DNA from: Synechococcus sp. J7-Johnson
Lineage (GTDB): Bacteria; Cyanobacteriota; Cyanobacteriia; PCC-6307; Cyanobiaceae
Direction: 5' to 3'
Assembly (NCBI RefSeq): GCF_024345795.1
Contig: NZ_JAGQBU010000023.1
Coordinates: 1-43,898 of the forward strand
Length of the DNA stretch: 43,898 bases
Shown piece after piece: positions 41,977-43,898 of the stretch (position 1 is its first letter; each line of letters starts with the position of its first letter). A program made the translations under genes and the position numbers. The notes below the pieces were generated by a model. The model saw nothing but the letters and a program-made list of their open reading frames with translations, was not told the origin of the DNA and did not search any database.

Positions 41977-42185
41977 GCTCAGCTGTTCATACCAAGTTGT
42001 TGACGCCTGTGCTGATGATGTTGACACTCAATCCTCTGCCGAAGGCCCAGGCGAAGCGGTGGCGCCATGGTGGCTGTGGAGTGCTGGGCCGATCGCTGCC
42101 GCATGGATATGGGCGGAGTATGCGGCGGGTTATGGGTGCAACCGGCAGCGCCGGGCGATGTGGATGTGGTCGGGGGATGGGGCCA
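41977..42185. other. Non-coding stretch at the edge of the accessory region
   Basis: No convincing gene, RNA or repeat is seen in these 209 bases. Frames across it lack protein-like composition. This marks the boundary between the chromosomal backbone and the remnant element to the right. No tRNA gene or obvious attachment repeat is visible. Confidence 0.45.
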
Positions 42186-42305
42186 TCACGTCTCGGCTCC
42201 ATCAGCGAGGAACGCCTTCACCTTCCGTCCGTTAACGTGCGCGAAGTCCGGTCCCAGGGCGGTGGCGATCTGCTCCGGCAGCCAGTCGGGATGCTCCAGT
42301 GCCAT
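42186..42305 (-). CDS. Short hypothetical ORF, 39 residues, probably a remnant
   Basis: ATG 42305 encodes MALEHPDWLPEQIATALG followed by PDFAHVNGRKVKAFLADGAET. The composition is protein-like (helical, charged). It lies downstream of the decayed ATPase on the same strand. The frame remains open upstream to 42593 but runs through the repeats there, which is unlikely to be coding. It may be a small accessory protein of the element or the end of a deleted gene. Confidence 0.35.
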   Translation of the reverse strand: MALEHPDWLPEQIATALGPDFAHVNGRKVKAFLADGAET

Positions 42306-42343
42306 GGCGGGCGCGTGCCAGGCGAATTCAGTGGCTGGAATTG

Positions 42344-42360
42344 TTCGTTGTGATAACGAA
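42344..42360. repeat. Inverted repeat TTCGTT-n5-AACGAA beside the iterons
   Basis: A perfect 6-5-6 inverted repeat with an AT-rich centre, ending 4 bases before the first 9-bp repeat at 42365. It could be an operator or part of an origin. It also contains GATAAC, but the second half does not match the Zur-type sites. Confidence 0.45.
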
Positions 42361-42364
42361 GGGG

Positions 42365-42561
42365 GGTTTCTGCCACTTTCCTTATCTCCACCGAATGACC
42401 GGCAGAAACGGCAGAAAGTGCAGAAACCCCGGGCCCCTACAGGACACTGATCTGAACCTTTCCGGCCCTCAGGCGCGAGGGAGGTTTCTGCCGTTTTTGC
42501 CGTTTCTGCCGATGGTTCGTTGGCCCCCGTGCGTGCGTGCGCGAGGCGATGCGGCAGAAAC
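42365..42561. repeat. Eight 9-bp iteron-like repeats in alternating orientation
   Basis: The unit is GGCAGAAAC, or GTTTCTGCC on the other strand. One copy lies at 42366-42374 (+). Three tandem units lie at 42401-42427 (GGCAGAAAC, GGCAGAAAG, TGCAGAAAC; opposite sense). Three tandem units lie at 42484-42510 (GTTTCTGCC, GTTTTTGCC, GTTTCTGCC), and one at 42553-42561 in the opposite sense again. The two 28-base blocks (42401-42428 and 42483-42510) are inverted copies of each other with 3 mismatches. They lie within and just beyond the 3' end of the broken ATPase gene. Confidence 0.85.
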
Positions 42562-43688
42562 CGGCCAGAACTCGTAGGCGGGCCTCCCTCCAACCCGCTT
42601 GGACTGAAGGGGCTGGACGCTGCCGAGGAGTCCCCTCCGCTCCAGCTGCTAAAGGGTCTTGAGCGCCGTGATGGCGGGATCCTTCCCTGTTAGCGCGAGG
42701 CCCTCCACCACGTCGGCGGCCGCGGTGCGCTCCATCCGGTCTTCCCACCGCTCGCGCACCAGGTCGAGGGTGTCGGCCTGGCGATCGTTCAGACCCTTAC
42801 GGCCGTCGGCGGCGTCCTGCTCCTTCTCCAGCATCTCGGCGGTGCCGTGGTAGTTCCATGTGCCCTCATCCCTTTGGATCACCAACGCCTGCGGTGCGCC
42901 TCCCCTGCCTTCGGTGGTGAGCAGCTTGCGCGGGTCGTTGTGGCTGGCGGAAGCGGGGGCGAGCTTGATTGTCTGGGAGACGCCACCGCAGGCACGGCGG
43001 TGGATCCTCTGGATGCCTGGGAAGCGCCTTCCCCTGCCCTACCCTTTCCGGCGTAGTGGATCAGAACCACGGTGGCGCCGTGGGGTTCCACCTGCTGCAT
43101 GAGGTGGTGGATCGGTTCCGCGATCTGCGGGGACTCCTCCTTGAGGCCCAAGGGGGCGACGCAGGCGGAGAGGGAGTCGATCACGATCAGCAGGCCGGGA
43201 CGCTGCTGCGCATAGGCGGCGATCCGGTCGATTCCCTCGGGGTCCAGGTGAAGCGGGGCGCCGATACGGACCCTGCTCCCCTGCCGCTCCGCCAAGCCAG
43301 CTTGCACGAGCATCTGGCCTCAGTCGTTGCCCCCCTGATCGGTGCCGATCACCAGCACCTCAGGGCAGGGGCCATGCAGTGTGCGATCCAGGAATGCAGG
43401 CTCGTTGCGGTGGTGAGCAGCGATCCAGACCAGCAGCAGGGAGGTCTTCCCTTGCTTCGGGAGGGCGATCATCAGGTTCAGGCGGCCAAGCATTACGAGG
43501 CCATCCCAGAGCCATGGGGTTGGCGTCACATCAAGCCACTGGCCTGGCAAGACCGGCTGATCTGAGCCGGTTGTGGCGCGACGTGCAGCGGTGAGGAGCG
43601 CCTGCAGCTCCTGATCGCGAATCGTTAGGTCGAGGGCCTCGGCCTCTGCCCTGAGGATCGGCAACCGGCTGGCATAAGCAGTCTTGCT
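42469..43688 (-). pseudogene. Broken RecA-like ATPase (RepA/AAA_25-type initiator helicase)
   Basis: On the minus strand the sequence encodes a RecA-fold ATPase. Walker A is ALPKQGKTS and Walker B is LLIVIDSLSA. GTDQGGND is followed by TGA at 43320 where GQMLVQAGL continues in the same frame. A one-base slip near 42970-43000 moves the frame to QTIKLAPASASHND, then ALVIQRDEGTWNYHG. TAG at 42649 interrupts ITALKTL before QLERRGLLGS and GGRPAYEFWPV, a winged-helix-like end. Stop is at 42469. Codons before 43664 (SKTAYASRL) run into the IS630 end, suggesting N-terminal truncation. Confidence 0.75.
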
Positions 43689-43898
43689 AGTGTGTTGTCC
43701 CGGAGATTTGCGAGCAAAGTCGCTGGAGCTTCTCCAGGATTGAATCCGCTGTGGCGGTCCAGTTGAACGGGGCCTTGGTCTTGTTGTAAGCCGCCACGAA
43801 CTGCTCGATCCTGGCGATCAACCCCTTGACGCTGGAGAAACTGCCCCGGCGGATGGCCCGCTGGGTGATGATCCCAAACCAGCGCTCCACCTGGTTGA
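43687..43898 (-). CDS. IS630-family transposase, C-terminal part (cut by window edge)
   Basis: The last 69 or so residues of an IS630-type DDE transposase. NQVERWFGIITQRAIRRG contains the final catalytic region (the Glu in VERWF). It is followed by VKGLIARIEQFVAAYN and the typical ending WTATADSILEKLQRLC. The stop TAG is at 43689-43687, right where the ATPase remnant begins, so the element's end is close to 43688. The rest of the element lies beyond base 43898. Confidence 0.88.
   Translation of the reverse strand, partial: NQVERWFGIITQRAIRRGSFSSVKGLIARIEQFVAAYNKTKAPFNWTATADSILEKLQRLCSQISGTTH

Follow-up and report, generated by a model that had tools for sequence, protein, structure and literature searches.

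A decayed helicase gene with an array of 9-bp iterons at its 3′ end, at the edge of a contig of Synechococcus sp. J7-Johnson, is probably the fossil of a self-contained replication module from a cyanophage-related mobile element, although binding and replication are inferred and we have no data on either. On our best reading, the array is an iteron origin embedded in an initiator-helicase gene and read by the protein's own winged helix. The window, the whole stretch analysed, is the complete contig NZ_JAGQBU010000023.1 (assembly GCF_024345795.1; 43,898 nt). Its relevant features are as follows.

42044–43898, no strand assigned: foreign remnant plus insertion sequence; no synteny with two same-genus genomes that match at about 96% up to 42043
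43705–43896, minus: C-terminal end of an insertion-sequence transposase, at the contig end (our own reading; no Pfam family at cutoff)
42472–43685, minus: decayed RepA-like helicase/initiator gene, with a TGA at 43322–43320, a frame change near 43.0 kb and a TAG at 42651–42649
43044–43526, minus: AAA_25 (RecA-fold ATPase) core, Pfam E 5.7e-13
42559–42795, minus: winged-helix region, placed by alignment to relatives and interrupted by the TAG
42553–42561, plus: single outer iteron GGCAGAAAC on the winged-helix side
42484–42510, minus: iteron triplet 1 (3 × 9 bp; units start at 42484, 42493 and 42502), coding for GRNGKNGRN
42471–42469, minus: terminal stop of the decayed gene, from the frame reading
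42428–42483, minus: spacer between the triplets, reading CTCCCTCGCGC on the minus strand beside triplet 1
42401–42427, plus: iteron triplet 2, inverted relative to triplet 1 and beyond the stop codon (units start at 42401, 42410 and 42419)
42366–42374, minus: single outer iteron on the far side

Synteny of the window with the two same-genus genomes begins at 39.3–39.6 kb and stops at 42043, so the DNA beyond is foreign; in a third same-genus genome the match, at 84%, extends to about 41.98 kb. Ahead of the remnant, seven frames between 36.4 and 42.0 kb were scanned, and each belonged to a host-type family or was unmatched. The transposase end occupies the spot where the 5′ part of the helicase gene should be. 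It has eight matches in the J7-Johnson genome, its own copy counted, and this repeat probably broke the assembly here. Whether the element was a phage, a plasmid or a satellite cannot be told from a contig that ends at 43898, and no tRNA gene was found in the window up to that edge. Searches of the J7-Johnson genome yielded no second helicase copy and no primase half, the latter without a positive control. Other contigs of the genome hold two integrase relatives, with no tie to the helicase remnant.

A sequence-only reading of this DNA had described eight 9-bp units of the GGCAGAAAC type, grouped 1-3-3-1 in alternating orientation inside and past the 3′ end of the helicase gene, and the units, their grouping and their orientation were all confirmed. 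The two 28-base triplet blocks are indeed inverted copies with three mismatches, and the upper one (42510–42484) encodes GRNGKNGRN in the ATPase frame, as had been proposed. The stop codon at 42471–42469 follows this block, so the lower triplet is non-coding in the window. Searching for the pattern GGCAGAAACGGCAGAAA with up to three mismatches gave four matches in the window, every one of them in the array, against a mean of 0.15 in shuffled sequence, where none of 100 shuffles gave four. The array in the window is thus beyond chance.

The gene itself proved to be the broken RecA-like ATPase that had been suspected, with its AAA_25 core and its coding sequence interrupted by the TGA, the frame change and the TAG. 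In a search of 386 genomes from the phylum, its best match other than itself was an intact frame of 900 residues in Synechococcus sp. CCY 0621 (58% identity), and tblastn matched it to gp45 of the cyanosiphovirus S-CBS3 (37.1% identity over 92% of the query) and gp41 of S-CBS1 (35.8% over 84%). The annotation of S-CBS3 gp45 is putative hexameric replicative helicase RepA. Coverage by the A5 profile comes in two pieces, at positions 16–259 and 258–396. Pfam gave no match for the window's own C-terminal piece, and NCBIfam none for six proteins from the module and its neighbours. The winged helix claimed for this C-terminal segment rests on alignment to relatives, some of which have LexA- or MarR-type Pfam matches, and on models of one relative.

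Relatives occur in the cyanosiphoviruses S-CBS1 and S-CBS3, in uncultivated viruses and in integrated elements. At E ≤ 1e-10, 19 of the 386 phylum genomes have a match, and within the genus a relative is present in three of nine genomes, J7-Johnson being included in both counts. Scanning viral contigs with the window's ATPase piece as a single protein found no relative, so alignments of relatives were used as queries instead; from that scan we took the best 80 of 128 relatives. A second set comprised the 80 most distant of 148, and ten named genome contigs were added separately.

AAA_25 was found in all 30 aligned members and LexA_DNA_bind in 17 of the 30, with MarR-, IclR- or Crp-type domains in others; where intact relatives were tested, a single frame encodes both helicase and winged helix. 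Some relatives have primase-like N-termini, recognized by weak Toprim_3 or RepB_primase matches, by PHROG primase families or by DUF3854, and in one (L130) the preceding gene has a weak Prim-Pol match. The S-CBS1 and S-CBS3 helicases belong to the family phrog_30286, listed in PHROGs as of unknown function and without a description. The CCY 0621 protein matches this family at 2.6e-87; the window itself was not part of that comparison. In the same-genus genome G116, a single 1454-aa frame (L241:6592-10956, minus strand) contains DUF3854, AAA_25, a winged helix, the iteron array, a 3′-5′ exonuclease and DNA polymerase A. The array sits between the winged helix and the polymerase, and a tRNA-Pro(TGG) gene lies about 1 kb away.

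Structure prediction, proposed earlier as a check for a RecA core plus winged helix, recovered both in models of the CCY 0621 relative. The ATPase–winged-helix model, built from a 30-row alignment (pLDDT 85, pTM 0.71), matched RSF1010 RepA best among the PDB chains compared (Z 19.7 over 224 residues, 3.0 Å). KaiC and DnaB were within 1 Z of it, and the fold is therefore assigned as RecA-type rather than as RepA alone; Foldseek likewise ranked RecA, RadA, DnaB and RepA together. Modelled alone, the last 96 residues (pLDDT 84.6) gave winged-helix matches including Orc1/Cdc6 and MarR-type chains, with a best E of 4.2e-3 and none at or below 0.001. Searching the PDB by sequence gave no significant match, only two chance matches.

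Is the array a recurring feature of this family? For each relative we analysed a 400-nt region that begins 20 codons ahead of the point where the ATPase–winged-helix alignment stops. A first test, which kept 98 of 103 loci, counted the most non-overlapping copies of one 9-mer on both strands with at most one mismatch: at least five copies were present in 63 of 98 regions, compared with 101 of 2,579 non-overlapping control windows from the same loci. A second test scored two inverted 3 × 9 bp blocks 20–110 bp apart by their summed unit identities (maximum 135); the test and its threshold were set only after the layout had been noticed. Of 193 loci offered, 111 were kept in addition to the window, the others having no profile match that reached the domain end or fewer than 400 nt after it. 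Scores of at least 85 were reached by 81 of the 112 regions (window included) versus 2 of 3,170 control windows, and scores of at least 90 by 75 regions versus no control. The window scored 120, the top of the 112 regions; its own 108 control windows, which are not counted among the 3,170, scored at most 77. The set is redundant (S-CBS3 appears three times). When one member was picked per group at below 70% identity, regardless of score, 15 of 27 passed. With arrays at the same place and in the same layout in so many relatives, a fossil initiator with iterons, as inferred by the sequence-only reading, is the best-supported reading of the window.

The array is not universal, however. The remaining 31 regions scored below 85, among them true relatives (L041, L129 and L130) that scored like controls. 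Two same-genus relatives were added later: one scored 90, with controls no higher than 74, and the other 79, with controls no higher than 69, which is over its controls and under the threshold. In four distant relatives from phages, a cyanophage among them, the last 450 nt of the gene showed no array, and among seven cyanobacterial plasmid relatives only L014 stands out, with L220 tying its best control. Separately, the Microbacterium phage Kauala has a strong cluster of 14 copies of a CGACGAGGA-like 9-mer (L224:4516-4966), located upstream of its RecA-like gene and not at that gene's end.

Nor is the spelling of the unit conserved. Units vary by locus, from GGCAGAAAC in the window to GTGCGAAAC in S-CBS1 and GGTCCGATG in CCY 0621, with GTGACAAAC, GTGTCAAAC, GGGGAACAA, GGGGTAATA and GTTAGAAAC at other loci. 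Searching 399 genomes of the order for the GGCAGAAAC triplet with up to three mismatches found J7-Johnson and a single weak place in one other genome. The expectation that intact homologues always carry GGCAGAAAC-type arrays at their 3′ end thus holds for place and layout, although not in every homologue, and fails for the GGCAGAAAC spelling.

Could such repeats arise merely because selection on the protein maintains a low-complexity peptide tail? Of the 80 passing relatives, 74 have both blocks within coding sequence, and many viral members share an RA.YE.RG-like spacer peptide and the peptide of the second block, as this explanation would have it. The two blocks are nevertheless reverse complements that encode different peptides, both lie beyond the stop codon in 6 of the 80, and the second block of the window is non-coding. 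The spacers argue in the same direction, albeit less cleanly: TCGCGC is present in the spacers of 27 of 61 distinct relatives, versus 0.8 expected, and in that of the window, and it falls in all three frames (12, 5 and 10 of the 27), though a similar peptide is partly kept. Changes in the number of CGs preserve a similar peptide in part of these spacers, and DNA and protein constraint are not separated by them. We give the peptide-tail explanation hardly any credence, and the refutation that it would have provided does not hold.

Each locus carries its own array only once: none of the 61 distinct passing loci has a second cluster of its own unit (three matches in 120 bp) within the fetched stretch. 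This bears on the possibility that the array is an internal operator through which the winged helix regulates its own or the next gene, with no origin involved. LexA- and MarR-type winged helices are common in repressors, and operators can be inverted. Here, however, the domain is fused to a replicative-type helicase, with primase-like parts in some relatives, and besides lacking a second cluster in the fetched stretch, the array sits at the 3′ end and not at a promoter. We therefore regard an operator as unlikely.

If the array is instead an iteron origin read by the winged helix of the same protein, reader and unit might be found to change together. Across 34 loci that share less than 97% core identity and whose units can be put in a common register, we compared unit divergence with protein divergence in sliding windows of 15 columns; the J7-Johnson window and loci that do not fit one register were omitted, including CCY 0621, L037, L042, L046, L074, L128, L131, L132, L134 and L160. 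Unit divergence correlated best with that of the helix-turn-helix (HTH) columns, with a partial Mantel r of 0.79 controlling for the whole core (n = 34; P = 0.001, 999 permutations), whereas the correlation with the whole core alone was 0.17. Taking the ATPase part as background, the HTH value was 0.80, and windows before column 300 reached at most 0.32. Residues encoded by the array correlated with the unit, as expected. Linkage alone should raise the correlation on both sides of the array; in the conserved domain directly after it, the value was 0.20 or less and then about zero with the ATPase background.

The signal was also seen within unit classes. In the non-GGG class (n = 23), the HTH reached 0.59, the ATPase at most 0.28 and array-encoded residues up to 0.67, with the domain after the array starting at 0.36 and falling to near 0. 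In the GGG class (n = 11), the correlation was 0.80 at the end of the recognition helix, 0.20–0.43 in the windows just before, at most 0.34 in the ATPase and near 0 in the domain after the array. Residues in this class paired with the unit: all 19 loci with KVN have AA and all 6 with KVL have TA, many of these loci being near-identical. Mantel tests do not fully remove shared ancestry, and a winged-helix and array cassette exchanged as one piece would produce the same pattern of covariation. What we observe, then, is a recurring layout, unique at each locus, whose sequence drifts and is tracked by HTH residues; that the repeats in the relatives are where these elements start copying their DNA is the most likely inference.

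Other signs of an origin were mixed. Of 61 distinct relatives, 29 have C-rich and G-rich outer arms at both ends of the array, compared with about 1% of random windows; such C-tract and G-tract arms are absent from the window. An AT-rich unwinding element was considered and rejected: spacers are AT-richer than their locus in 12 of 15 relatives, a weak tendency, and the window spacer, at 31% AT, is not AT-rich. GC skew was likewise discarded as evidence for an origin, since the cumulative extremes do not fall at the array in either S-CBS3 (12.1 and 26.1 kb; array near 31.6 kb) or S-CBS1 (base 3 and 26.3 kb; array near 28.8 kb).

Arrays of short repeats also serve as partition (centromere-like) or packaging sites, and a winged helix could bind such a site. 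Joining the ends of the S-CBS1 and S-CBS3 records would put the end of the gene about 1.5 kb ahead of the large terminase gene, as might suit packaging. Against both roles, the reader domain belongs to a helicase; against partition, there is no fused ParA or ParB partner, and among the annotated loci fetched ParA is nearby only in one Nostoc plasmid. A partition or packaging site thus seems very unlikely to us, and an origin remains the preferred reading.

The genomic context of several relatives resembles that of mobile elements. A tycheposon or other tRNA-linked satellite would be expected to have an integrase and a tRNA attachment site next to the module. Of 16 genome loci scanned, 9 have a tRNA gene no more than about 4 kb from the module: tRNA-Pro(TGG) in six (L040, L044, L130, L134, L241 and L242), tRNA-Ala in L126 and L041, and tRNA-Arg in L128. 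In L042 and L132 a tRNA gene was found only far from the module, and none was found in the scanned stretches of L037, L038, L039, L129 and L131. Integrase-like genes flank the module in L126 and L128. In Prochlorococcus MIT 9302 (L132:9827-16925), an array-bearing helicase, a phage capsid/protease gene and a serine recombinase occur together, a locus that resembles a capsid-carrying satellite. In the CCY 0621 element, the replication gene is followed at once by a gene for a SIR2_2-domain protein (L126:12033-13967), possibly defence cargo.

In the proposed mechanism, an intact relative would be a RecA-fold helicase of the RepA/DnaB type, in some cases with a primase-like N terminus, fused to a winged helix. 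Its origin would lie soon after the winged-helix codons, usually in frame, as two opposed 9-bp triplets flanking a spacer. The winged helix is inferred to bind the iterons in its own gene. The three units of each triplet may seat one helicase assembly, and the opposed triplets could then load two helicases, so that replication would run both ways once the spacer opens to start it; each of these steps is inferred.

We are evenly divided on a broader hypothesis, that these are one-gene replicons. A single frame would hold primase-like parts, a RecA-fold helicase and a winged-helix initiator, with the origin between or after these domains (and a family A polymerase in one same-genus relative), and iteron spelling and recognition helix would change together to give each phage or satellite lineage a private initiation code. 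If so, related elements with private codes could coexist in one cell, or compete, without triggering each other's initiation. For a widespread group of cyanosiphoviruses and integrated elements, the analysis points to a specific origin and initiator that can be put to the test. The covariation of recognition helix and iteron provides natural pairs for decoding winged-helix specificity, such as KVN to KVL, and suggests how picocyanobacterial phages and satellites keep separate replication identities on one protein scaffold.

Among known systems, phage lambda and the phages N15 and PY54 share part of this arrangement. Lambda O is not known to be a helicase and has another fold and another repeat layout; in N15 and PY54 the origin is inside the repA gene, and the protein is a P4-alpha-like helicase of the SF3 type, not of the RecA fold. 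The likeness to lambda is that its origin repeats are part of the gene for O, the initiator that reads them (PMC7157519, from the portion of the text available), and that to N15 and PY54 is that repA alone suffices for circular plasmid replication (PMC10612081, likewise in part). RSF1010 and other IncQ plasmids are comparable in their RecA-fold hexameric RepA helicase, a structural match tied with KaiC and DnaB, and in the same set of functions, namely helicase, primase and oriV binding. According to the accessible part of PMC2200642, these functions are separate products in RSF1010, and oriV is separate as well. Unlike RSF1010 with its RepC and RepB, the present family combines helicase and DNA-binding domain in one protein, with primase-like parts in some members and the array in the gene.

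For cyanophages, a search limited to open-licence literature found no paper on arrays of such a kind, and the section of the S-LBS1 main text that was available (PMC6157547) contains no word starting with 'repeat'. The functional model for the proposed mechanism is SaPI Rep. As far as the consulted sections of PMC7581432 go, SaPI Rep and SCCmec Cch2 are self-loading initiator helicases of the DUF927 or D5/Primase_C type. Their C-terminal domain recognizes short iterons that follow immediately after the gene; binding is presumed to involve two hexamers, and there are three iterons in the Cch2 site. The place is similar here, with an array at the 3′ end of the helicase gene and a unit that covaries with the HTH, binding again being inferred. 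Unlike the SaPI type, the helicase is an AAA_25 RecA-fold protein in the window and in all 30 aligned relatives, and unlike the SaPI origin, which follows the gene, the array is usually inside the reading frame and consists of two inverted 9-bp triplets. Within the literature searched, the combination of a RecA-fold helicase, inverted 9-bp triplets and a drifting unit that follows its reader looks new.
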